Shown: positions 26,483 through 39,148 of the stretch, in pieces
Numbering within the stretch: position 1 is the first letter of the stretch
Layout of the letters: each line of letters opens with the position of its first letter
NCBI GenBank assembly: GCA_021463195.1
Contig: JAJTXZ010000007.1
Span: 1 to 64,000 of the forward strand
Source: Anaerolineae bacterium
GTDB taxonomy: Bacteria > Chloroflexota > Anaerolineae > UBA4142 > SHND01
Reading direction: 5' to 3'
Length of the DNA stretch: 64,000 nucleotides
Translations under genes and position numbers: made by a program
Notes under the pieces: model-generated
Database searches by the model: none
What the model saw: only the letters and a program-made list of their open reading frames with translations
Told to the model about the DNA's origin: nothing

Positions 26483-26516
26483 AGACCCCAAGGGTTTTCG
26501 AAAACCCTTGGGGTCT
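26483..26516. repeat. 34-bp perfect palindrome, AGACCC family, copy 1
   Basis: AGACCCCAAGGGTTTTC and its exact mirror form a palindrome without a loop. Copies at 39989-40022 and 53468-53501 keep the symmetry while the bases differ (CCCCAAGGG, CCCTTGGGG, CCCTAAGG). The flank CGGATTTCT is shared with the 53-kb copy read in reverse. Confidence 0.85.
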
Positions 26517-26594: not shown

Positions 26595-28262
26595 ATGAAA
26601 CACATCGCGTTCGTCTTTACGATCACGCTTTTATTTTTTCTCCTCTTGCTCGCGCCCGCGCCGCTCGCGCAAGCGCAGGGCAACAAGTTTGAAAAAATCA
26701 ATCATGTCATTATTCTTTATCTCGAAAATCACACGACGGACAATTTGTACAGTTTGCTGCCCGGCGTGAATGGCGTCAATTCGCCCGGCGGGGCGATTAC
26801 GCAGCTCGACCAAAACGGCAAGCCGTATGAAACACTGCCGCCTGTCGTCGTGAGCTTTCGCTACGACGGCTTTGGCAAACCGATTGATACTTTGCCCGGT
26901 TTGCCCGACCCGCGCTTTCCCGATAAATTTCCCAACAAACCGTTTTTGATTGACGACGTTGTGCCGAATAATGTTTTGCTTGGCACGCCGCTGCATCGTT
27001 TTTATCATCATCAGTTACAAATGAACTTGAACGCGCCCGCGCCGCCCGAAGCGCCGTGTCTCAAAGACGCGACGCCTTGCACCGGGGCGATGAATAAATT
27101 TGTCGCGTGGACGGATGTGGGCGCGCAGACGATGGGCTATTACGACACGACAAAATTGCCGTTGTTTCCCTATGCGCGCGATTACACCTTTGGGGATAAT
27201 TTTTTCACCGCCGCGTTCGGCGGCTCGTGGCTCAATCACATGTGGCTCGTGTGCGCTTGCACGCCGCGTTGGGAAAACGCGCCGAAAGAATTTATTGCCA
27301 CGCCTGTTTTTGACGCGCAGGGCAAGTTAAGCGGCGACACGAGCGGCGAAACGGGTCTCGTGACGCCCGATGGTTACGCGGTCAACACGGGCGTTGATTC
27401 TTTTTATCCGCCGCACACGAGTTTGCCCGATAATCAACGTTTGCCGCCGGTGGATGCGCCTACGATTGGCGACCGTTTGAGCGCGGCGGGAATTTCGTGG
27501 TACGAGTATTTGGGCGGCTGGCAAGATTACATTGACGGACGCGCCGAAAATCCTGTCCCATTCATCGCCGAACCGCCAATGTCATCGCATGTGTATTTCA
27601 AACCATACGGCCCGGGAATGCCCGGACGCGAACATTTACGCGATTCCGATTTCTTTGTGCCGGACTTGTTGAACGGCAATTTGCCCGCCGTTTCGATTAT
27701 CAAACCCGATCCCGCGTATGACGAACACCCCGGTTATTCCATCGTGGAACAAGCGGAACAGCACGCGCTGTTGTGGATTCAAGCGGTGCAGCTCAGCAAG
27801 TATTGGCAAGATACGGTCATCTTTATCACGTATGATGATTATGGCGGATGGTATGATCATGTGCCGCCGCCGAAAATTGACCGCTGGGGGCCCGGCGGAC
27901 GCGTGCCGCTTTTGGTGATTTCGCCGTGGGCAAAAAAGGGTTTTGTTGACCACACTTTTTACGACACCACGTCGCTTTTGAAATTTATCGAGACACGTTG
28001 GAATTTGTCATCGGTGGCGACGCGCGACGCGAACGCGAATGATTTGGCGAATGTGTTTGATTTTACGCAAACGTCCGCTTTGAATACCGCGCCCGATACC
28101 GCGTTGGGCCAAGACCAACCGCCGGCTGTGTTGGCATCGCCGAACGCGAATGAAAATGTTTTGATCGGACGAAACGCGTTGCTTGCGGTTGGCGCGGCGG
28201 TCGTTCTCGGCGCGTGCGGGTTCATTGCGCTGCGGCGCCGCGCAAAAAGAAAGCTGCGCTAA
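26595..28262 (+). CDS. Secreted phosphoesterase of the phospholipase C / acid phosphatase family
   Basis: The protein of 555 residues has a signal peptide (about 1-28) and a C-terminal membrane anchor (about 527-548, then RRRAKRKLR). The mature part has the family start FEKINHVIILYLENHTTDNL (Glu-Asn-His metal/nucleophile block), GDNFFTAAFGGSWLNH, and the late block FITYDDYGGWYDHVPPP followed by GRVPLLVISPWAKKGFVDH. This is the superfamily of bacterial phospholipase C and AcpA phosphatases. It should act on phosphate esters outside the membrane, perhaps to scavenge phosphate. It is transcribed from its own good promoter. Confidence 0.9.
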   Translation: MKHIAFVFTITLLFFLLLLAPAPLAQAQGNKFEKINHVIILYLENHTTDNLYSLLPGVNGVNSPGGAITQLDQNGKPYETLPPVVVSFRYDGFGKPIDTLPGLPDPRFPDKFPNKPFLIDDVVPNNVLLGTPLHRFYHHQLQMNLNAPAPPEAPCLKDATPCTGAMNKFVAWTDVGAQTMGYYDTTKLPLFPYARDYTFGDNFFTAAFGGSWLNHMWLVCACTPRWENAPKEFIATPVFDAQGKLSGDTSGETGLVTPDGYAVNTGVDSFYPPHTSLPDNQRLPPVDAPTIGDRLSAAGISWYEYLGGWQDYIDGRAENPVPFIAEPPMSSHVYFKPYGPGMPGREHLRDSDFFVPDLLNGNLPAVSIIKPDPAYDEHPGYSIVEQAEQHALLWIQAVQLSKYWQDTVIFITYDDYGGWYDHVPPPKIDRWGPGGRVPLLVISPWAKKGFVDHTFYDTTSLLKFIETRWNLSSVATRDANANDLANVFDFTQTSALNTAPDTALGQDQPPAVLASPNANENVLIGRNALLAVGAAVVLGACGFIALRRRAKRKLR

Positions 28263-28384: not shown

Positions 28385-28390
28385 GTCGCG

Positions 28391-28420
28391 CATAACATAC
28401 CGAACGTTCGGTATGTTATG
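28391..28420. promoter_or_regulatory. Perfect 30-bp palindromic operator for the TetR regulator
   Basis: CATAACATACCGAAC and its exact mirror form a 30-bp palindrome with centre ACCGAACGTTCGGT, the style of operator bound by many TetR-family repressors. It lies over the predicted start of transcription and ends 17 bases before the tetR start codon, so autorepression of the whole unit is expected. Confidence 0.88.
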
Positions 28421-28437
28421 CTGCGCTTGCGCTAACG

Positions 28438-29034
28438 ATGTCGAATTCCGACGCCACCATCGCGGCAATCCTCGCCGCCGCTGAAAAACTTTTCGTCGAA
28501 CGCAACTATGCGGATGTTTCGATGCGCGACCTTGGCGTCGCCGCGCGCGTTTCGACGGGCGCGCTCTATCATCATTTCCCCAGCAAAGAAAAATTATATT
28601 ACGCCATGTTCACGGCGTACATGGCGCGCGTAAAACAAACCACGCTCGACGCGCTCCCGCGCACCGGCTCGTGCCGCGAGCGGCTGCGCGCCTTGACGCG
28701 GGTCTATTTGGCGATGCGCCCCGCGCAGCGCAACGTGATGCGTCTCGTGCGCCGCGATTTAAACGCGTTCAACGGGCGCATGCGCGAAGGCATGGTGCGC
28801 GCGTACCAAGGCGCCGTTCCCGATTTGGCGGAACATGTTTTACGCGACGCGATCAAGAATCGGGAAATCAAGAATCAAGACGCGCGCTGGCTCGCGTGGG
28901 CATATGTGGCGATTGTGGAAACGACGCTCGGCGAATATGCGCGGCAAAATTTGGGGAACGAAGCGGCGCGCTTGGATGCGGCGCTGGATTTATTTTTAGA
29001 GGGCGCGCGCTGCGGTCAACAGCGTAGGGGCTGA
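28438..29034 (+). CDS. TetR-family transcriptional regulator
   Basis: The protein of 198 residues has a canonical TetR helix-turn-helix (about 8-55: ILAAAEKLFVERNYADVSMR, then VSTGALYHHFPSKEKLYYAM). The C-terminal ligand domain is less conserved. It is the first gene of the unit and sits behind a perfect operator, so it probably controls the anthraniloyl/kynurenine genes, with a CoA thioester or aromatic acid as possible effector (inference). Codons for the KNREIKNQD segment (28851-28879) consist of three 7-base units and one 8-base unit like those found between the later genes. Confidence 0.93.
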   Translation: MSNSDATIAAILAAAEKLFVERNYADVSMRDLGVAARVSTGALYHHFPSKEKLYYAMFTAYMARVKQTTLDALPRTGSCRERLRALTRVYLAMRPAQRNVMRLVRRDLNAFNGRMREGMVRAYQGAVPDLAEHVLRDAIKNREIKNQDARWLAWAYVAIVETTLGEYARQNLGNEAARLDAALDLFLEGARCGQQRRG

Positions 29035-29067: not shown

Positions 29068-30636
29068 ATGATGCGAATTAATATTTTAGGCGGCGGACCT
29101 GCAGGGCTGTATTTCGCGGCGCTGCTAAAAAAACAGAATGCCGCGCACGATATCACCGTCGTCGAACGTGATGGCCCCAATGATACCTTTGGTTGGGGCA
29201 TCGTTTTTTCTGATACGACGCTTGATAATTTCGCGCAGTGCGACAGAGAAACGTACGACGAATTCACGCGCGCGACGCAAAAACGCGACAAGGTGATTAT
29301 TGAACATAGGGGCGAAAAAATCGCCGTGCGCGGCAATCCCATTTCGGGCGTGGCGCGGCTCGCGTGGCTGCAAATTTTGCATAAACGCTGCCGCGAACTC
29401 GGCGTGAACTTGCGTTTTCACGAAAACGTCACGAATGTCAATGATTATTTGAATTGCGATTTGCTCGTCGGCGCGGATGGCGCGAACAGTTTGACGCGCA
29501 AAACGTACGAAGGATTTTTTCAGCCCTCCATCGAGATTCGGCAAAACAAATATATTTGGCTCGGCACGACGCAAGCGTTCGACGGCTTGACGATGATGTT
29601 TCGCGAAACGGACGCGGGCTTGTTCATCGCGCACGCGTATCAATTCAGCGAAACGCACAGCACGTTCGTCGTCGAGTGTCCGCCCGAAACGTGGCTCAAT
29701 GCGGGTCTCGACAAAATGAGCGACGACGAAACGGTCGCGTATCTCGCGGATATTTTCAAACACGAATTGAACGGACACGCGCTGCTGCACAATAATTTTG
29801 TGCGTTGGACTAATTTTCCCTTGATCAAGGTTCGCAAGTGGTATCATACGCCGCGCGGCGGCACGCCGATTGTGTTGTTGGGCGATGCGCTGCACACCGC
29901 GCATTTTTCCATCGGTTCCGGCACAAAACTTGCGATGGAAGATTCGATTGCGCTCGCGGATGTTTTCGCGCGCGATTCGGATATAGCGACCGCGCTGCCT
30001 GAATTTCAACGCGTGCGCAAGCCGGTGGTGTGGCGTTTTCAGACCGCCGCGCTGCGAAGTTTGGCGTGGCTCGAAGATGTGCAAAAATATCTGTCTCTCG
30101 CTCCGCTGCCGTTCGCGTACAAAGTGATGACGCGCAGTCAACGCGTCAGTTTTCAACGCGTCGAAATGGCGGACCCTGAATTCGCGCACGCGTATCAAGC
30201 GTGGAAAAAAGCGCAGCCAAAACGCAGCGCGATTCCCGATGATTTTTTGGACTTGTTCCAGAAAAAAGCGTACGGTCATCTTTCGACGCTGATGCCCGAT
30301 GGCACGCCGCATGTGACGAGCGTGTATGTGGATTGGGACGGCAAATATATCATCGTCAATTCGGCGCGCGGGCGCGTCAAGGATAAAAATATGCAAGAAC
30401 GTCCGCACGTCGCCTTGCAAATTCCCGACCCCGATAATTCGGACCGCTACATTTCGATTCGCGGCCGCGTCGTCGAAATCACGCAAGAGGGCGCGGAGGA
30501 ACATCTCAACAAATTGGCGCAGCGTTATATCGAAAAAGATGTGTATCCGCCGAGCATGCGTTTTCCCGGCGAAGTGCGCGCGCTGTATAAAATTTTGCCG
30601 GACAAGGTGATTGTGTGGAGTCCGTGGGGAGGATAA
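29068..30636 (+). CDS. Anthraniloyl-CoA-type FAD monooxygenase fused to a split-barrel F420/FMN domain
   Basis: The protein of 522 residues has two domains. Residues 1-385 are a flavoprotein monooxygenase of the salicylyl-CoA 5-hydroxylase / anthraniloyl-CoA monooxygenase type: ILGGGPAGLYFAALLKKQN, then ERDGPNDTFGWGIVFSD, GADGANSLTR, and GDALHTAHFSIGSGTKLAME. Residues 392-522 (FLDLFQKKAYGHLSTLMPDG, then VNSARGRVKDKNMQERPHVA) are a split-barrel domain of the pyridoxamine-phosphate-oxidase-like, F420-dependent class. The known anthraniloyl-CoA monooxygenase/reductase carries an old-yellow-enzyme reductase instead. I infer hydroxylation of anthraniloyl-CoA followed by ring reduction by the second domain, with FMN or F420; this is not proven. 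The genes around it fit the pathway. Confidence 0.88.
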   Translation: MMRINILGGGPAGLYFAALLKKQNAAHDITVVERDGPNDTFGWGIVFSDTTLDNFAQCDRETYDEFTRATQKRDKVIIEHRGEKIAVRGNPISGVARLAWLQILHKRCRELGVNLRFHENVTNVNDYLNCDLLVGADGANSLTRKTYEGFFQPSIEIRQNKYIWLGTTQAFDGLTMMFRETDAGLFIAHAYQFSETHSTFVVECPPETWLNAGLDKMSDDETVAYLADIFKHELNGHALLHNNFVRWTNFPLIKVRKWYHTPRGGTPIVLLGDALHTAHFSIGSGTKLAMEDSIALADVFARDSDIATALPEFQRVRKPVVWRFQTAALRSLAWLEDVQKYLSLAPLPFAYKVMTRSQRVSFQRVEMADPEFAHAYQAWKKAQPKRSAIPDDFLDLFQKKAYGHLSTLMPDGTPHVTSVYVDWDGKYIIVNSARGRVKDKNMQERPHVALQIPDPDNSDRYISIRGRVVEITQEGAEEHLNKLAQRYIEKDVYPPSMRFPGEVRALYKILPDKVIVWSPWGG

Positions 30637-30684: not shown

Positions 30685-31452
30685 ATGACAAAAGTCGCAT
30701 GGGTGACGGGCGCGGGCAAAGGAATTGGCGCGGCGATTGCGCGCGAGTTTGGGAAACGCGAAATGCGCGTGGCTCTATCGGCGCGCACCGCGTCAGATAT
30801 TGACCACGTTGCGGATGAAATTCGCGCGGGAGGGGGAGAAGCGTTGGCGGTAACGTGCGACGTAACGAAACCTGACGAAATTGCCAACGCGGTCGCGCGG
30901 ATTCAAACGCGCTTGGGCGCGCTAACGATTTTGGTGAATAACGCGGGCATGGCGGGTTCGCATAAATTTTTGGACCACGACGACGCGCTGTGGCATAAAA
31001 TTATCGCGACAAATTTGGATTCGGTGTATTACGTCACCAAAGCGGTCGCGCCAATGATGGTGGAACAAAATTGGGGGCGCATCATCAATATCGCGTCCAT
31101 CTCGTCCAAAGTCGGCGCCAAGTATATTGCCGCGTACACCGCATCCAAACATGGCGTGCTCGGGCTTACGCGCGCGCTCGCGGCAGAGTTTGTTTCCAAC
31201 AACATCACCGTCAACGCGATTTGTCCCGCCTATATGGATACGCCAATGACGGATGGCACGGTCGCGAATATGACGCAGCGCGCGAAAATGTCCGAAGCCG
31301 ACGCACGCGCGTATCTCGCCAAGCTCTCGCCGCAAAATCGGCTCATCACGCCCGCAGAGGTCGCGCACGTCGCGTTGATGCTCGTTGACGAAAACGCGCG
31401 CGGCATCACGGGGCAGGCAATCAATGTGGATGGCGGAATGGTGATGTTTTAG
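30685..31452 (+). CDS. Short-chain dehydrogenase/reductase (3-hydroxyacyl type)
   Basis: The protein of 255 residues is a classical SDR: cofactor loop Thr8-Gly-Ala-Gly-Lys-Gly-Ile-Gly15, NNAG motif, Ser in NIASISSK and the catalytic Tyr151-x3-Lys155 (YTASKHG). The C-terminal RGITGQAINVDGGMVMF closes the substrate pocket as usual. In this cluster it may reduce or oxidise a cyclic keto or hydroxy CoA thioester made from anthraniloyl-CoA; NAD versus NADP is not clear. It sits between two heptamer arrays. Confidence 0.9.
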   Translation: MTKVAWVTGAGKGIGAAIAREFGKREMRVALSARTASDIDHVADEIRAGGGEALAVTCDVTKPDEIANAVARIQTRLGALTILVNNAGMAGSHKFLDHDDALWHKIIATNLDSVYYVTKAVAPMMVEQNWGRIINIASISSKVGAKYIAAYTASKHGVLGLTRALAAEFVSNNITVNAICPAYMDTPMTDGTVANMTQRAKMSEADARAYLAKLSPQNRLITPAEVAHVALMLVDENARGITGQAINVDGGMVMF

Positions 31453-31456
31453 AAAA

Positions 31457-31491
31457 CGGAAGGCGGAATTCGGAAAATGGAGTTTGGAAAG
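31457..31491 (+). repeat. Heptamer array supplying the kynureninase ribosome binding site
   Basis: Five gap-free units: CGGAAGG, CGGAATT, CGGAAAA, TGGAGTT, TGGAAAG (31457-31491). The last unit contains GGAAAG, the only Shine-Dalgarno-like sequence before ATG 31496. Confidence 0.75.
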
Positions 31492-31495
31492 ATCC

Positions 31496-32758
31496 ATGCC
31501 GTCATTTGATTTACAATACGCGCGCGCGCTGGATGCGCGCGATCCGCTCGCAAAATTCCGCGACGAATTTGCGATTGACGACGCGGACGCAATTTACATG
31601 GACGGCAATTCGTTGGGGCGTTTGCCGAAACGGGCGATGGCGCGCGTGCGCGAGGTTGTCGAAAACGAATGGGGCAAGCGTCTCGTGCGCGGCTGGGGCG
31701 AAGGATGGATGGACGCGCCGGCGCGGCTCGGCGGAAAAATCGCGCAGCTGCTCGGCGCGCAGAGCGCTGAAGTGTTGGTCGCGGATTCTACGTCAGTCAA
31801 TTTTTATAAATTGGCGAACGCCGCGCTCGACGCGCGTCCGACGCGGAATCAGATTGTCACAGAAACGGTCAACTTTCCAACCGATTCGTACATTCTGCAA
31901 GGCATCGCGCGCACGCGCGGCAAAACGATTACGTACGCCGCGCCACAAAACGATGTCGCCATTTCAATGGATGCGATTGTTCACGCCATCGAAAAAAATA
32001 ATTGCGCGCTCGTGACGCTTACGCACACGGCGTTCAAAAGCGGCGCGGTGTATGACATGCGCGCGCTTACGCAAGCGGCGCATGACGCGGGCGCGTTGGT
32101 GTTGTGGGATTTGTCGCACTCGGTCGGTTCGATTCCGCTTTACTTGAACGATTGCAACGCGGATTTGGCGGTCGGCTGCACGTACAAATATCTCAACGGC
32201 GGACCGGGCGCGCCCGCGTTTTTGTACGTGCGGCGCGATTTGCAAAATGAATTGTTGAATCCGATTCAAGGATGGTTCGGACAGAAAAATCAGTTTGCGA
32301 TGGATTTCGATTACGCGCCCGCGCAGAGCATCACGCGTTTCGGTGTTGGCACGCCGCCGATGCTTTCGTTATTGGCGATGGAAACGGGTGTTGATTTATT
32401 GCTCGAAGCGGGCATGAAAAATTTGCGCGCGAAATCCATTCAGCAATCGGAATTTTTAATCGCGTTGTGGGAGGAATGGCTGAAACCGTTCGGCGTCACC
32501 TTGAATTCGCCGCGCGATGCAAATGTGCGCGGCTCGCACGTTTCGCTCGGGCATCCCGATGGTTTGCGGATTGACCGCGCGTTGATTGAAGAAATGAACG
32601 TGATTCCCGATTTTCGCCCGCCCGACAATATTCGTTTCGGCATCGCGCCAATTTATACGCGCTATGAAGATGTGCACCACGCGATGGAAAGAATGAGACG
32701 AGTGATGCAAGAACAGCTTTACGAAAAATATCCAATGGAACGTCCAACTGTCACCTAA
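31496..32758 (+). CDS. kynU: Kynureninase
   Basis: The start at ATG 31496 gives 420 residues, the normal length. It begins with the conserved YMDGNSLGRLPKRAM and has GWGEGWMDAP, DSTSVNFYKL, VLWDLSHSVGSIPL, and the PLP lysine Lys231 in CTYKYLNGGPGAPAF. Kynureninase splits kynurenine into anthranilate and alanine. Within this unit it would feed anthranilate into the anthraniloyl-CoA pathway. Neither tryptophan dioxygenase nor a typical kynurenine formamidase is in the window; the hydrolase at 34242 might serve, but that is speculation. Confidence 0.95.
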   Translation: MPSFDLQYARALDARDPLAKFRDEFAIDDADAIYMDGNSLGRLPKRAMARVREVVENEWGKRLVRGWGEGWMDAPARLGGKIAQLLGAQSAEVLVADSTSVNFYKLANAALDARPTRNQIVTETVNFPTDSYILQGIARTRGKTITYAAPQNDVAISMDAIVHAIEKNNCALVTLTHTAFKSGAVYDMRALTQAAHDAGALVLWDLSHSVGSIPLYLNDCNADLAVGCTYKYLNGGPGAPAFLYVRRDLQNELLNPIQGWFGQKNQFAMDFDYAPAQSITRFGVGTPPMLSLLAMETGVDLLLEAGMKNLRAKSIQQSEFLIALWEEWLKPFGVTLNSPRDANVRGSHVSLGHPDGLRIDRALIEEMNVIPDFRPPDNIRFGIAPIYTRYEDVHHAMERMRRVMQEQLYEKYPMERPTVT

Positions 32759-32931: not shown

Positions 32932-33723
32932 ATGGCATACGATTTTCTCTACGATATTCAAGACCACATCGCGACGATTACGCTAAATCGCCCCGACAAA
33001 CTGAATGCGATTACGTTGGAAATTTACGCGCAGTTGCGCGATTTGTTTGAAGAGCTGCGTTATGACGACAACGTGCGCGTTGTTTTGGTGACGGGGAATG
33101 GACGCGCGTTTTGCGCGGGCGGCGATGTTCACAAAATTATCGGCGTGACGCTCGACCGCGACATGCGCGAGCATTTGGAATTTTGCCGCATGACGGGACA
33201 TCTTGTACGGAATATGCGTTTATTGCCGAAACCGATTATCGCGGCGGTGAATGGCATGGCGGCGGGCGCGGGCGCGGTGGTTGCGTTAGCGTGCGATTTG
33301 CGCGTCGTCGCCGATAACGCCAAGTTCGCGTTTTTGTTCACGCGCGTGGGCTTGACGGGCGCGGACATGGGCGCGGGCTTTTTATTGCCGCGCGTGATTG
33401 GGCAAGGGCGCGCGATGGAATTGTTGATGTTGGGCGACGATATAGACGCGGCGACGGCGGAAAAATTTGGCTTGGCGAATCGCGTTGTGCCGCACGATCA
33501 AGTAATGCCCACCGCGCGTGAACTCGCGACGCGTTTGGCGCAGGGTCCGACGTATTCGCTCGGCATGACGAAATTGATGGTGAACAACGAATGGACGATG
33601 GACATTAACACGGCGCTGGAAGCGGAAGCGCAAGCGCAAGCGTTAATGATGATGGGCCAAGATCATCGCGCGTTTTTTGAAGCGTTCGTGGCAAAAGAGA
33701 AACCGACGTTCACGGGGAGATGA
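32932..33723 (+). CDS. Crotonase-fold protein lacking both usual catalytic glutamates
   Basis: The protein of 263 residues has the crotonase frame: ITLNRPDKLNAIT, GRAFCAGGDVHKI (first oxyanion segment), and AVNGMAAGAGAVVALACDLR. By my alignment to enoyl-CoA hydratase the two catalytic Glu positions are Val and Phe; an Asp in VGLTGADMGAGFLLPR lies close to the acidic residue of isomerase-like members such as PaaG. It may therefore be an isomerase, a ring-opening hydrolase or a deaminating hydratase acting on a cyclic CoA ester rather than a standard hydratase. No ribosome binding site is evident; the nested repeat precedes it. Confidence 0.88.
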   Translation: MAYDFLYDIQDHIATITLNRPDKLNAITLEIYAQLRDLFEELRYDDNVRVVLVTGNGRAFCAGGDVHKIIGVTLDRDMREHLEFCRMTGHLVRNMRLLPKPIIAAVNGMAAGAGAVVALACDLRVVADNAKFAFLFTRVGLTGADMGAGFLLPRVIGQGRAMELLMLGDDIDAATAEKFGLANRVVPHDQVMPTARELATRLAQGPTYSLGMTKLMVNNEWTMDINTALEAEAQAQALMMMGQDHRAFFEAFVAKEKPTFTGR

Positions 33724-33756
33724 CGAATGACGACGGACGACGGACGACGGATGACC
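33722..33756 (+). repeat. Heptamer array spanning a stop and a start codon
   Basis: Five units: GACGAAT, three times GACGACG, then GATGACC. The first overlaps the crotonase stop codon (33721-33723) and the fifth contains the likely RidA start codon (33751-33753). Confidence 0.8.
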
Positions 33757-34167
33757 AAAGAAATCATTAATCCTGCTTCACTTGCAAAACCGACCGGCTA
33801 TGCAAATGGCATTCTCACGCGTGGCGGAAAAATTTTGTTTCTCGCGGGTCAAACGGGGATGGACGCGACGGGGAAAATCGAGAACCCGTTTGATTTGATT
33901 GAGCAGTTTCAAAAAGCGTTGGAGAATATCAAAACGATCGTGAATGAAGCGGGCGGCGACTTGACCGATGTTGTTCGCATGACGATTTTTGTGACGGACA
34001 AGCGCGCGTACCACGCGCAGCGCGACCGTATCGGTCAAGTGTATCGCGCGTATTTCGGCAAATATTTTCCCGCGATGACATTGGTGGAAGTGAAAAGTTT
34101 GTACGACGCGAACGCGCTGATCGAAATTGAAGCGACGGCGGTGATTGGGGATACTGACAACGGATAG
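33751..34167 (+). CDS. RidA (YjgF/YER057c) family protein
   Basis: The protein of 138 residues from ATG 33751; an earlier in-frame ATG at 33727 would add eight residues encoded by the heptamer array. The RidA core is present: INPASLAKPTGYANGI, FLAGQTGMDATGKI, QKALENIKTIVNEAGGDLTD, VRMTIFVTD and a final EIEATAVIG. RidA proteins hydrolyse enamines or imines, and some are aminomuconate deaminases. In an anthraniloyl-CoA pathway it could release the amino group as ammonium from an enamine intermediate. Confidence 0.9.
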   Translation: MTKEIINPASLAKPTGYANGILTRGGKILFLAGQTGMDATGKIENPFDLIEQFQKALENIKTIVNEAGGDLTDVVRMTIFVTDKRAYHAQRDRIGQVYRAYFGKYFPAMTLVEVKSLYDANALIEIEATAVIGDTDNG

Positions 34168-34241: not shown

Positions 34242-35003
34242 ATGTGTTACGACAACAACGCGCGTCCACCGGAACCGCCGGGCGAAAGACGCAACGCGAC
34301 AGGACGCGAGCTTGTTTTGACCGCGACGGATGGGATTCCATTCAACGCGTATCTTGCGGAACCGACGGATGGGTTCGACGCGCAAGTTTTGATTTATCCC
34401 GATATTCGCGGGCTGCATCAATTTTATAAAGAGCTCGCGCTGCGTTTCGCGGAAGTGGGCGTGCGCGCGTTGGCGCTGGATTATTTCGGGCGCACGGCGG
34501 GCTTGACTGCGCGCGATGATGAATTTGATTTTATGCCGCATGTGCAGCAAATGACGATGCCGACGTTTTATGCGGACGTTGACGCCGCGCTCGCGCATTT
34601 GCAAAACGGCAGCGCTGCGCCAACATTCATCGTCGGTTTTTGCCGCGGCGGCTCGCTCGCGCTTTACACGGGTTCGCAAAAGTACAAACTCGCGGGTTTG
34701 ATTCCATTTTACGCGGGTCTCGCGCGTCAAATCCCCGGCGCGGACGGGACCGCGTTGGAAGAGGCGCACAAAATTCATTATCCCGTGCTTGGACTTTTCG
34801 GCGGCGATGATCCGGGCATTCCCCACGAGCAAATTGTACAACTTGACGGCGAACTCGATAAAGCGAATGTCGAACACAAAATTGTGATTTACGAAAATGC
34901 GCCGCACAGTTTCTTTGACCGCAAGCAAACGGAATGGGCGGAAGCATCCGCGAACGCGTGGGAGAGAGTGTTGGGGTTTATAAAGCGAGAGACTGGAGAT
35001 TAG
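34242..35003 (+). CDS. Dienelactone hydrolase family protein
   Basis: The protein of 253 residues follows GGGGGC. It has an alpha/beta hydrolase fold with the cysteine nucleophile of dienelactone hydrolases in VGFCRGGSLAL, the acid in GGDDPGIP and the His in APHSFFDR; DIRGLHQFY forms the oxyanion region. It would hydrolyse an ester, lactone or thioester in the pathway. Its last codons and stop codon (RETGD) are encoded by the heptamer array at 34989. Confidence 0.88.
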   Translation: MCYDNNARPPEPPGERRNATGRELVLTATDGIPFNAYLAEPTDGFDAQVLIYPDIRGLHQFYKELALRFAEVGVRALALDYFGRTAGLTARDDEFDFMPHVQQMTMPTFYADVDAALAHLQNGSAAPTFIVGFCRGGSLALYTGSQKYKLAGLIPFYAGLARQIPGADGTALEEAHKIHYPVLGLFGGDDPGIPHEQIVQLDGELDKANVEHKIVIYENAPHSFFDRKQTEWAEASANAWERVLGFIKRETGD

Positions 35004-35023
35004 AGATTGGAGACTGGAGATTG
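34989..35023 (+). repeat. Heptamer array providing stop, ribosome binding site and start codon
   Basis: Five exact units: GAGACTG, GAGATTA, GAGATTG, GAGACTG, GAGATTG. The hydrolase stop codon TAG (35001-35003) spans units two and three, GGAG at 35009-35012 is the only ribosome binding site, and the last TTG (35021-35023) is the likely start of the acyl-CoA dehydrogenase. Confidence 0.85.
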
Positions 35024-36172
35024 AATTTCGCGCTCACTGACTCGCAACAAAAAATCCAACACCGCGCGCGCGACTTTGCCCAAACGCGCGTAGCGCCCAT
35101 CGCGCGCGAGATGGACGAACGCGGCGCGATGCCTCTCGAACTCGTGCGCGAAATGGGCGTATTGGGATTTCTCGGCGGACCTTTGCCGAGCGAGTACGGC
35201 GGCGAAGGGTGGGACGCGGTTTCGCTTGCGTTGTGTTATGAAGAATTGGGACGCGTGGATTCTTCGGTGCGCGGCTTAATGACTGTTCACACCTCGCTTG
35301 TGTCACAGTGCATTTTGAAATGGGGAACGGCGGAACAAAAGCAAAAATTTTTGCCCAAGCTCGCGCGCGGCGAATGGCTGGGCTGTTACGCGCTTACCGA
35401 ACCGAACGCGGGTTCCGACGCGGCGAGCATGGAAACTACCGCAACGCAGGACGACGACGAATTTGTTTTGAATGGCGAAAAAATTTGGATTACGAATGGC
35501 AATATCGCGGATGTGGCGATTGTGTTTGCGAATTCCAATCGCGCGCTGAAACACAAAGGCATCTGCGCGTTTTTGATTGAAACAAACCTTAAAGGATTTG
35601 CGCGCGAGAAAATGCGCGGACAGGAATTGGGGCATCGCGCGTCGGACCACGCGCACATTCGTTTTGAAAATATGCGCGTGCCGAAAACCGCGCTGTTGGG
35701 AAATGTCGGCGAAGGTTTCAAGGTGGCAATGTCCGCATTGGATCACGGACGGCTCGGCGTCGCGGCGGGCGCGTTGGGCGTGGCGCAAGCATGTTTGGAC
35801 GCGAGCGTCGAGTTTGCGCGCACGCGGCGGCAGTTCGGTCAGCGCATCGGCGATTTTGAAATGATTCAAAGCGTGATTGCGAACATGGCGGCGGATGTGG
35901 ATGCGGCGCGCATGTTGGTCTATCGCGCCGCGTGGTTAAAAGACGAGGGGCAACGCGCGACGCGCGAAACCTCCATCGCAAAATTATTCGCCACCGAAGC
36001 GGCGGTGCGCGCGGCATCGGAAGCGGTGTTGTTGCACGGCGGACGCGGTTATTCGAACGAATATCCGGTCGAACGTTATTATCGCGATATCAAAGGTCTG
36101 CAAATTTACGAAGGCACGTCACACATTCAGCGCATTGTGATTGCGCGCGATTTAATTGGAAAGGAAATGTAG
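35021..36172 (+). CDS. Acyl-CoA dehydrogenase
   Basis: The start is placed at TTG 35021 because homology begins at FALTDSQQKIQHRARDF and longer versions read through the repeat array. The protein of 383 residues has the ACAD signatures YALTEPNAGSDAASM and GEKIWITNG (flavin binding), RRQFGQRIGDFEMIQ and the catalytic Glu in IYEGTSHIQ. It would introduce a double bond in an acyl-CoA with FAD, passing electrons to an electron-transfer flavoprotein not found here. A second, clearly different ACAD follows. Confidence 0.9.
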   Translation: MNFALTDSQQKIQHRARDFAQTRVAPIAREMDERGAMPLELVREMGVLGFLGGPLPSEYGGEGWDAVSLALCYEELGRVDSSVRGLMTVHTSLVSQCILKWGTAEQKQKFLPKLARGEWLGCYALTEPNAGSDAASMETTATQDDDEFVLNGEKIWITNGNIADVAIVFANSNRALKHKGICAFLIETNLKGFAREKMRGQELGHRASDHAHIRFENMRVPKTALLGNVGEGFKVAMSALDHGRLGVAAGALGVAQACLDASVEFARTRRQFGQRIGDFEMIQSVIANMAADVDAARMLVYRAAWLKDEGQRATRETSIAKLFATEAAVRAASEAVLLHGGRGYSNEYPVERYYRDIKGLQIYEGTSHIQRIVIARDLIGKEM

Positions 36173-36175
36173 ATC

Positions 36176-36231
36176 GAGACTGGAGACTAGAGACTAGAGA
36201 CTCTAATCTCCAGTCTCTAGTCTCTAGTCTC
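36176..36231. repeat. Eight-heptamer hairpin touching the next start codon
   Basis: Exactly eight 7-base units fill 56 bases: four direct (GAGACTG, GAGACTA, GAGACTA, GAGACTC) and four reversed (TAATCTC, CAGTCTC, TAGTCTC, TAGTCTC). Bases 36183-36202 pair perfectly with 36212-36231 (20 bp, 9-base loop). The ATG of the second acyl-CoA dehydrogenase begins at the next base, 36232. Confidence 0.9.
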
Positions 36232-37440
36232 ATGGATTTCACTCTCACCGAAGAACACCTCAGCGCCCAAAGCATGGTGCGCGAGTTTTGCAAAAAAGAG
36301 GTCGCGCCGATTATTAAAGAGGCGGACCGCAAACAAGAAATGGATCCCAACATTTTGCCGCGCATGGGCGAACTCGGCATTTTGGGAATTTGCATTCCGC
36401 AAAAATACGGCGGACAAGGTTTCGATTACATCACGCTCGGCCTCGTGTGCGAAGAACTGGAAGCGCTGGATACGAGCTTGCGCGTCGTCATGTCCGTTCA
36501 CATGGGCCTTAATTCGCTCGCCATTTTGCAATGGGGCAACGAAGAACAAAAACAAAAATTTCTCGTCCCGCAAGCGCAAGGCAAAAAATACGCGATGTTT
36601 GGTCTCACCGAGCCGGGCGTCGGCAGCGACGTGGCGGGCATGGCATCCACCGCAAAACGCGACGGCGATGTGTATGTGTTGAACGGCGAAAAAATGTGGA
36701 TTTCGCTCGCGTCCAAAGCGCATCACATTCTTTGGGTCGCGCGCACGAATCCCGAACGTCCCGACCCGCACGACCAACTTTCGGCGTTCCTCATCGAAAC
36801 GGACCGCGAAGGCATTACGCGCGGCGACATTCACGGCAAGCTCGGCGTGCGCGCGGGTTCGACGGGCTGGGTGAATTGCAGTGACGTGCGCGTTCCCGTC
36901 GCCAATCGTTTGGGCGAAGAGGGCGAAGGTTTCAAAATCGCGATGTCGTGTTTGGACAACGGGCGTTACACTGTCGGCGCGGGCGCGGTAGGTTTGATTC
37001 GCGCGGCGTTGGAAGCGAGCGTCAGTTATGCGAACACGCGCAAAACATTCGGCAAGGAAATCGGCAAGCATCAACTCGTCCAGCAAAAAATCGCGCGGAT
37101 GGTGCGCGATTACGAGTACGGCAGATTGATGTTACTCAAAGTCGGCTGGATGAAAAATCAGGGGATTCGCAACACGAAAGAAACTTCGCTGTTGAAATGG
37201 TTTGCCACCGACCAATCGTTCGACGCCGCGAACGAAGCGATTCAAATTCACGGCGCGTACGGTTTCAGCGACGAGTACGATGTGGAACGCTATTTGCGAA
37301 ATTCGCGCGGCGCGATCATTTACGAAGGCACGAGCGAAATTCATCAAATCATGCAAGCGGGTTACGCGCTCGGCTATCGCGCGGACGGCGCATTGCGCTG
37401 CGAATTGCCAAAGTACGACGCGGCGGAATGGCAGGCGTAG
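36232..37440 (+). CDS. Acyl-CoA dehydrogenase (second)
   Basis: Homology begins at ATG 36232 (MDFTLTEEHLSAQSMVREFC), giving 402 residues. Signatures: FGLTEPGVGSDVAGM, GEKMWISLASKAH, RKTFGKEIGKHQLVQ and catalytic Glu in IYEGTSEIHQIM. It differs from the first ACAD throughout, so the two probably act on different intermediates. There is no Shine-Dalgarno sequence; the start codon directly abuts a 20-bp hairpin. A terminator follows at 37509. Confidence 0.9.
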   Translation: MDFTLTEEHLSAQSMVREFCKKEVAPIIKEADRKQEMDPNILPRMGELGILGICIPQKYGGQGFDYITLGLVCEELEALDTSLRVVMSVHMGLNSLAILQWGNEEQKQKFLVPQAQGKKYAMFGLTEPGVGSDVAGMASTAKRDGDVYVLNGEKMWISLASKAHHILWVARTNPERPDPHDQLSAFLIETDREGITRGDIHGKLGVRAGSTGWVNCSDVRVPVANRLGEEGEGFKIAMSCLDNGRYTVGAGAVGLIRAALEASVSYANTRKTFGKEIGKHQLVQQKIARMVRDYEYGRLMLLKVGWMKNQGIRNTKETSLLKWFATDQSFDAANEAIQIHGAYGFSDEYDVERYLRNSRGAIIYEGTSEIHQIMQAGYALGYRADGALRCELPKYDAAEWQA

Positions 37441-37607: not shown

Positions 37608-38453
37608 ATGGAAACTATTTCGGTCATTGGCGCGGGGACGATGGGCGGCGGCATCGCGCACGCGGCGGCGTTGGGCGGGTACCGCGTTATGTTGTATGAT
37701 GTCGCGCCGGAATTCACGCAGCGCGGCGTGGAACGCATTCACCAAAATTTGGCGGCAAGTGTCGCGCGCCAAAAATTGGAGGCGGATTTGGCGGACGCAG
37801 CGCGACAGCGTATTCGAACGACACAGGCGCTTGCCGACGTCGCGCAGTGCGATCTCATTCTCGAAGCAGCGCCAGAACAACTCGAGCTCAAGCGCCAACT
37901 GTTCGCGCAGCTCGACGCGCTCGCGCCCGCGCGCTGTATCTTTGCCAGCAATACGTCGTCGCTCAGCGTCAATGTTCTGGCGAGCGCGACAAAGCGCGCG
38001 GATAAATTTATTGGCATGCACTTTTTCAATCCCGCGCATTTGATGCCGCTTGTCGAAGTGATTCGCGGCGCGGCGACGAGCGTTGAAACGACGAACGCGG
38101 CGTTAGCGTTTGTGGCGCGTTTGAACAAAACGGCGGCGCTGTGTCGGGATACGCCTGGGTTCATTGTGAATCGCGTCGCGCGACCCTTTTATGGCGAGGC
38201 GCTGCGGTTGTTGGGTGAAGGCGCGGCGGAGGTGGAAACGATTGACGCGCTGATGGAAACGCTCGGTTTCAAAATGGGCCCATTTCGTTTGATTGACTTG
38301 GTGGGATGCGATATAAATTTCGCCGTCACGCAATCGGTATATAACGCGTTTTTCCAAGACCCCAAATATCGTCCGCATCCGCTGCAGCAGCAGATGGTGG
38401 AAAGCGGAAAGCTCGGACGCAAAACGGGGCGCGGATTTTATTCCTACGAATGA
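37608..38453 (+). CDS. 3-hydroxyacyl-CoA dehydrogenase
   Basis: The protein of 281 residues is the full single-unit form: Rossmann loop GAGTMGGGIAHAAALGG (from residue 8), EAAPEQLELKRQLF, SNTSSLSV and GMHFFNPAHLMPLVEVI with the catalytic His, and the C-terminal domain DTPGFIVNRVARPFYGEALR. It oxidises 3-hydroxyacyl-CoA with NAD, a beta-oxidation step. It overlaps the next gene by four bases (ATGA). No ribosome binding site is visible before ATG 37608, where an A-rich run stands. Confidence 0.93.
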   Translation: METISVIGAGTMGGGIAHAAALGGYRVMLYDVAPEFTQRGVERIHQNLAASVARQKLEADLADAARQRIRTTQALADVAQCDLILEAAPEQLELKRQLFAQLDALAPARCIFASNTSSLSVNVLASATKRADKFIGMHFFNPAHLMPLVEVIRGAATSVETTNAALAFVARLNKTAALCRDTPGFIVNRVARPFYGEALRLLGEGAAEVETIDALMETLGFKMGPFRLIDLVGCDINFAVTQSVYNAFFQDPKYRPHPLQQQMVESGKLGRKTGRGFYSYE

Positions 38454-39148
38454 ATATTCTCCTTGTCGGCGTCGCGCCGTTTACGAATCCGCTCGCCGCG
38501 CTGTTTGAACGCGGTGGACATACCTGTACGCGCTATACCCCATCTGATTTTCTCGCGGCGCGCGCATTGCCCGCGTGTGAAATTTTTGTCGAAGCCGAAA
38601 ATACCGCGCTCGAGACCAAGCGCGCCATTTTGGAACGCGCGCCGCGCGCGGCGTTGCTGCTCAGCTGCGCGTTGAACGCGAGCGCGACCCTTGCCGCGAG
38701 TTGGACGCGCGCGCCGGAACGCGTGGTCGGCTTTGGCGTGCTGCCGCCGATTCCTGAAACGGGAACGATTGAACTGGCGCGCGGTTTGCAAACGAATGAC
38801 GCGGCGTGGGCGCAGGCGTACGATTTGTGGCGCGCGTTGGGACAAAAAGTTGTCGCGGTCGGCGACAACGCGGGGTTGACGCGCGCGCGGATTGTATGCG
38901 CGATAATTAATGAAGCGTTCAGCGCGCTGCAAGAGCGGGTCGCGTCGCCGCGCGAAATAGATTTGGCGATGAAATTAGGGACGAATTATCCGCGCGGCCC
39001 CTTCGAGTGGGGCGAATTGATTGGGCTCGAGACGGTGTTGGGGGTGATGGATGGCTTGTACGCGGAATGGCGCCAAGACCGTTACCGTCCCGCGCCGCTG
39101 CTCGTCAAATATGTCGCCGCGAAAATGACGCCGCGCGCGGACGCATAA
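38450..39148 (+). CDS. Degenerate 3-hydroxyacyl-CoA dehydrogenase homologue
   Basis: The protein of 232 residues starts in the ATGA overlap with the intact dehydrogenase. Its C-terminal half is a normal dimerisation domain (GLTRARIVCAIINEAFSALQ, then PREIDLAMKLGTNYPRGPFE). Its N-terminal half is shortened and lacks the NAD loop: the position of GxGxxG reads GVAPFTNP. It probably cannot bind NAD alone and could be a structural partner, as in gene-duplicated dehydrogenases where one half has lost activity. Confidence 0.85.
   Translation: MNILLVGVAPFTNPLAALFERGGHTCTRYTPSDFLAARALPACEIFVEAENTALETKRAILERAPRAALLLSCALNASATLAASWTRAPERVVGFGVLPPIPETGTIELARGLQTNDAAWAQAYDLWRALGQKVVAVGDNAGLTRARIVCAIINEAFSALQERVASPREIDLAMKLGTNYPRGPFEWGELIGLETVLGVMDGLYAEWRQDRYRPAPLLVKYVAAKMTPRADA

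Follow-up and report, generated by a model that had tools for sequence, protein, structure and literature searches.

A conserved fusion of an anthraniloyl-CoA-type monooxygenase half with an F420-class split barrel in Chloroflexota

Gene content of the locus and architecture of the fusion protein

The window studied here, a stretch of 64,000 nucleotides from an Anaerolineae bacterium (contig JAJTXZ010000007.1), carries at 29068-30636 (+) an open reading frame for 522 amino acids, which lies second in an operon whose genes are all on the forward strand. The operon begins with a TetR-family regulator of 198 aa (28438-29034; best match to the NCBIfam TetR models 64.7 bits; orthologues of 73-85% identity in G403 and G404) and continues, after the fusion gene, with an SDR of 255 aa (30685-31452), a kynureninase (31484-32758; TIGR01814, 286.6 bits against a cut-off of 246.4) whose true start is probably slightly downstream of 31484, an enoyl-CoA hydratase family protein (32932-33723; PRK08258, 385.5 bits against a cut-off of 330), a RidA-like enamine/imine deaminase (33727-34167; Pfam Ribonuc_L-PSP, 1.3e-23) and a dienelactone-hydrolase family protein (34242-35003; Pfam DLH, 5e-34). 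It is completed by two acyl-CoA dehydrogenases, the first at 34934-36172 with homology from residue 30, the second at 35932-37440 with homology only from near residue 101, so that its gene would start at about 36232, and by a 3-hydroxyacyl-CoA dehydrogenase (37608-38453) and a second, N-terminally short protein like it (38450-39148).

A preliminary description of this DNA had read the N-terminal 385 or so residues as the monooxygenase half of an anthraniloyl-CoA-type enzyme and residues 392-522 as a split barrel of the F420 class, with the old-yellow-enzyme (OYE) half missing. Domain searches bear this out. The FAD-dependent monooxygenase half (29068-30216, +, residues 1-383) displays GGGPAG, GADG and GDALHTAHFSIGSGTK motifs and matches Pfam FAD_binding_3 at residues 4-302 (1.8e-12), and its residues 2-383 align with positions 1-387 of NF006101/PRK08255 (448 bits, 5e-134), the 768-position NCBIfam model of salicylyl-CoA 5-hydroxylase/oxidoreductase. 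The whole-protein cut-off of that model is 1078 bits, and the fusion stays below it, matching only the monooxygenase half; no Oxidored_FMN (OYE half) was found in the protein with Pfam. The second half (30238-30609, +, residues 391-514, the gene ending at 30636) is an FDOR-B/TIGR03618 domain, matched by Pfam PNPOx_N at residues 391-495 (2.7e-12) and by TIGR03618 (Rv1155_F420), where residues 394-514 cover positions 2-125 of 127 with about 86-90 bits against a cut-off of 79.05.

Among solved structures, the nearest by sequence is VioD (3c4a, 192 bits) to the N-terminal half and MSMEG_3380 (3f7e) to the C-terminal one. VioD-type flavin monooxygenases thus provide the closest solved structure to the hydroxylase, but VioD, unlike the fusion, is a single-domain biosynthetic hydroxylase with no CoA-thioester context. 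The whole-protein prediction, built on a three-sequence alignment, reached a pLDDT of 37, and the usable model is that of the C-terminal domain only (residues 385-522, four sequences, pLDDT 75). This model presents a split barrel whose top solved match is again 3f7e (Z 12.9 over 121 residues), followed by Rv2074 with F420 (5jab, Z 11.3) and, at Z 10-11, by barrels that bind FMN, FAD or haem. As judged from profile and predicted model, the C-terminal part belongs to the Rv1155/FDOR-B class as a complete split barrel and falls inside the split-barrel superfamily.

Distribution of the fusion

The search for the same two-domain arrangement showed that nine further genomes carry it. The ten genomes comprise six of the window's own genus, three of another family of the order and one more of the class. 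The five other members of the genus encode full-length fusions with 75-88% identity to the window protein, those of the other family full-length fusions with 58-60% identity, and G318, from the same class, a fusion with 69% identity whose halves lie on two contigs. This broad search took in Chloroflexota only, with 400 genomes from the phylum and 396 from the class, and the other matches to the N-terminal half were mostly in frames of about 590-1240 residues. Other phyla, where the fusion may also occur, were covered only by an exact-peptide scan and by plasmids. A contig scan across genomes disclosed two fusions (L003 and L004), which are on the same contigs as those of G404 and G400 and are counted once each in the total. 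Among the plasmid matches listed, only the N-terminal half was matched, by proteins annotated as salicylyl-CoA 5-hydroxylase/oxidoreductase or FAD monooxygenase, and the sole plasmid record with more than 80% cover (Variovorax) was a stand-alone monooxygenase; the viral contigs yielded no match to the fusion. Published descriptions of this architecture were not found in the open-licence literature, in keeping with the earlier remark that no example was known, and the fusion thus appears to be a real and conserved arrangement that is undescribed in the literature searched.

Operon partners shared with OYE-fused enzymes

The known 2-aminobenzoyl-CoA monooxygenase/reductase converts anthraniloyl-CoA into 2-amino-5-oxocyclohex-1-ene-carboxyl-CoA (PMC4539516) and yields 5-hydroxyanthraniloyl-CoA under NADH limitation (PMC3534580); it is reported to have two distinct loci, one for oxygenation and one for hydrogenation (work cited in PMC6221969). 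The fusion has the same FAD monooxygenase half as this enzyme of Azoarcus evansii and the PRK08255 salicylyl-CoA 5-hydroxylase/oxidoreductase, with 44-48% identity to OYE-fused Chloroflexota enzymes, but, unlike the PRK08255-type proteins, its second half is an FDOR-B split barrel of about 125 residues and not an OYE TIM barrel of about 340.

The operon partners are also those of six OYE-fused enzymes of other Chloroflexota. Beside these six we found orthologues of the SDR (55-58% identity), the enoyl-CoA hydratase (64-68%), RidA (45-48%) and the first acyl-CoA dehydrogenase (66-70%). Other fusion clusters add a tryptophan 2,3-dioxygenase (G400, G402 and G403, TIGR03036 being over its cut-off in G400) and a gene of the benzoate-CoA-ligase family (G400, G409, G417, G418 and G318). 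No orthologue of this ligase was found in the window's own genome, which holds only a 49% paralogue. On their gene content, the fusion clusters are read here as a route from tryptophan through kynurenine and anthranilate to anthraniloyl-CoA. Since the same cluster surrounds both kinds of protein, with kynureninase beside the fusion, the fusion most likely does the same job as the OYE version, hydroxylating and then reducing anthraniloyl-CoA. In G400 (L004 5083-8643, the same contig as L085) the fusion gene overlaps the tryptophan 2,3-dioxygenase gene, and a DUF4932 protein is encoded between the latter and kynureninase.

The same assignment, which had been put forward from the window alone, is supported within the protein by residues H276, K287 and E291 of the hydroxylase half, which the fusion has in common with the OYE-fused enzymes: they are invariant in 9 of 9 fusions and 32 of 32 OYE-fused proteins, but most stand-alone relatives have R, R and Q there.

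Relationship to OYE-fused and stand-alone hydroxylases

The tree of hydroxylase halves was rooted with a single distant VioD sequence, and 32 proteins with 215-440 residues after the hydroxylase, beginning OYE-like, were counted in it as the OYE type; L018, whose gene is cut off by the contig end, was for that reason alone classed there as stand-alone. The OYE-fused proteins formed one clade (100/99), to which the fusions were sister with a support of only 97/60. The N-terminal domains of the fusions constituted one clade as well (100/99), and so did their C-terminal domains among the free-standing Chloroflexota FDORs (100/98); the split barrel was fused in all ten members. A recent replacement of an OYE half by a split barrel is unsupported, because the OYE-fused enzymes form a single clade that excludes the fusion. 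The description of the split barrel as standing instead of an OYE half therefore holds as to what is absent and what is present, but not as to a recent swap. The simplest reading, on a tree with one distant outgroup, is that the hydroxylase was fused twice, independently, to unrelated ene-reductases.

The hydroxylases that G217, G073 and a Variovorax plasmid encode as stand-alone proteins fell outside the grouping of fusions and OYE-fused enzymes, in a separate clade, and a CoA ligase gene is close to those of G217 and Variovorax. Two stand-alone relatives near AMP-forming CoA ligases, at L141 2223-5111 (a Chloroflexota genome) and L152 843-4137 (the Variovorax plasmid), look like salicylyl-CoA-type hydroxylases.

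Proposed reaction

We infer the substrate, the product, the order of steps and the cofactor of the fusion as follows. Anthranilate would be produced by kynureninase and converted by a CoA ligase into its CoA thioester, which the FAD half, with O2 and NAD(P)H, would hydroxylate at ring position 5. The split barrel would then hydrogenate the hydroxylated, enone-like tautomer to 2-amino-5-oxocyclohex-1-ene-carboxyl-CoA, the hydride donor being a reduced (deaza)flavin, most probably F420H2 that npdG/Fno would regenerate from NADPH. The enamine product would be passed on to RidA and to the beta-oxidation-type enzymes of the operon. RidA, which is encoded in all these clusters, acts on enamines and is not known to act on aromatic amines, and ring reduction should therefore precede it; most clusters showed no ene-reductase candidate besides the fusion. 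On these grounds we lean, by a little, towards a bifunctional 2-aminobenzoyl(anthraniloyl)-CoA monooxygenase/reductase whose ene-reductase half is the FDOR-B split barrel.

By analogy, an FDOR half in the place of an OYE half would preserve the chemistry. OxyS is the flavin hydroxylation partner of OxyR. In the OxyS/OxyR pair, as proposed for the fusion, double-bond reduction follows flavin hydroxylation (OxyR: PMC8498797), and FDOR-B1 enzymes of the OxyR type use F420H2 to hydrogenate dehydrotetracyclines (PMC8498797). In reducing activated alkenes, FDORs transfer a hydride directly from F420H2, a mechanism that has been called equivalent to that of old yellow enzymes (PMC5449967). The C-terminal domain has the family and fold of the FDOR-B1/TIGR03618 F420-dependent PPOX-class proteins (MSMEG_3380, the OxyR/CtcR tetracycline synthases), but the known members are small and single-domain, whereas that of the fusion is joined to a hydroxylase and belongs to a catabolic operon.

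Cofactor of the split barrel

The preliminary description had also proposed F420 as a possible cofactor, to be checked against the fbi and cof genes. The window's own genome contains a cluster of npdG, cofE, an FbiB C-terminal-like gene, GxxExxY, cofD, cofC and an LLM reductase (G000:C133, about 66311-72100; L036 16312-17601, L035 and the start of L037), in which npdG (196.7 bits against a cut-off of 149.8), cofE (273 against 180.65), cofD (319 against 257.45) and cofC (147.5 against 105) all score above threshold. For the proposal, then, stand these maturation genes, observed directly as a cluster; against it, profile searches gave no match to CofG or CofH in that genome, nor to CofH in any of six genomes of the genus, and three fusion carriers from family f92 in the same order, G409, G417 and G418, have npdG and cofE but no cofD. 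In G318 a single-domain FDOR with 45% identity to the fused domain lies between cofE and the FbiB-like gene of an F420 cluster (G318:C16, L136 7608-8003, -).

Similar Lys and Arg residues bind FMN in PNPOx-type folds, including its phosphate. The cationic residues that contact F420 in MSMEG_3380 are, by simulation, Lys53, Arg54, Arg23 and Arg205 (PMC5623714), the numbering of Lys53 being ambiguous against the chain. In our alignment K438 and R460 occupy F420-contact positions and are unchanged in all ten fusions, K440 is a K/R position with Leu in G418, and Arg23 is aligned with M409, so that one of the four named contacts is lost.

F420 is a plausible cofactor, and we put forward, tentatively and with somewhat less than even confidence, that a single F420H2-dependent polypeptide performs both the FAD/O2 hydroxylation of anthraniloyl-CoA and the subsequent F420H2 hydrogenation of the ring, in hosts that obtain FO without a known FO synthase. 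The same bifunctional hydroxylase/reductase could instead hold FMN (or FAD) reduced by NAD(P)H and use no F420. The missing FO synthase and the three carriers devoid of cofD are on the side of this flavin-dependent version, and the fold alone does not settle the cofactor because FMN-, FAD- and haem-binding barrels match nearly as well as the F420 enzymes do. We nevertheless consider it unlikely, given that the TIGR03618 assignment and the nearest fold are those of F420 enzymes, that K438 and R460 are retained throughout, and that npdG and cofE persist in both lineages tested. The explanations that may account for the gene content are FO salvage, a novel FO synthase or an FMN-dependent domain.

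Separate OYE genes in the carriers

It might also be that the split barrel does not reduce the ring, which would be reduced by another enzyme such as a separate OYE, or not at all, and that the domain has an accessory task, e.g. the reduction of a quinone-imine by-product or the supply of reduced flavin. In G318 (G318:C73, L038 6030-7541, -) a stand-alone OYE-type protein of 504 aa, with a C-terminal extension past the OYE domain, is encoded directly between the fusion and the SDR, and could reduce the ring in that genome; the window's own genome has one OYE-type protein of 686 aa on another contig; and, as noted above, close relatives include hydroxylases that stand alone beside a CoA ligase. 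However, the G318 protein is only 27-30% identical to the OYE halves of the known-type fusions and is for this reason not a split-off piece of such a half, no OYE was matched in the whole assemblies of G402 and G409, and RidA and the other common neighbours suggest that the ring-reduced intermediate is the same. An accessory role therefore seems to us improbable, slightly more so than the flavin-dependent version. In G404, G417 and G418 there are proteins of 477-556 aa (L126, L127 and L128) matched by the OYE profile in its middle only, at about 56-231 of 342.

Finally, a chance joining, frameshift or mis-assembly of two neighbouring genes is ruled out for practical purposes, since the frame is conserved across the independent assemblies of ten genomes (the nine others at 58-88% identity, eight of them full length and one over two contigs) and dN/dS of the window gene against six relatives lies at 0.06-0.29, well below 1, in both halves, which on these values are under purifying selection.

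Significance of the bifunctional reading

The anthraniloyl-CoA pathway belongs to the odd aerobic routes that couple hydroxylation to ring reduction within a single protein. Under the preferred reading of the fusion as a monooxygenase/reductase, a reductase half from an unrelated fold would perform an equivalent ene-reduction, and the coupling therefore seems to have arisen two times, through separate fusions. F420 is a rare cofactor, and the reason for its production in Chloroflexota was listed as unanswered in a 2021 review (PMC8498797). Were F420 the cofactor of the fusion, it would gain in this phylum a specific substrate and pathway and a catabolic role in central metabolism, and an FDOR would be at hand whose physiological substrate can be predicted. 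The presence of intact cofC, cofD, cofE and npdG genes with no FO synthase raises the question of whether FO is salvaged or made by a novel enzyme.

Palindromes near the operon

A perfect 32-bp palindrome, read from the sequence as GCATAACATACCGAAC followed by GTTCGGTATGTTATGC, is located at 28390-28421, a short distance before the TetR gene. A TetR neighbour was also seen in two other clusters, L078 (G404) and L080 (G403), and in both of them the core ACATACCGAACGTTCGGTATGT is again found close to the TetR gene. On its position and recurrence, the palindrome is a likely candidate for an operator. Another perfect palindrome, of 34 bp (AGACCCCAAGGGTTTTCGAAAACCCTTGGGGTCT, 26483-26516), precedes a gene for an acid phosphatase/phospholipase C-like protein at 26595 and could be a terminator stem.
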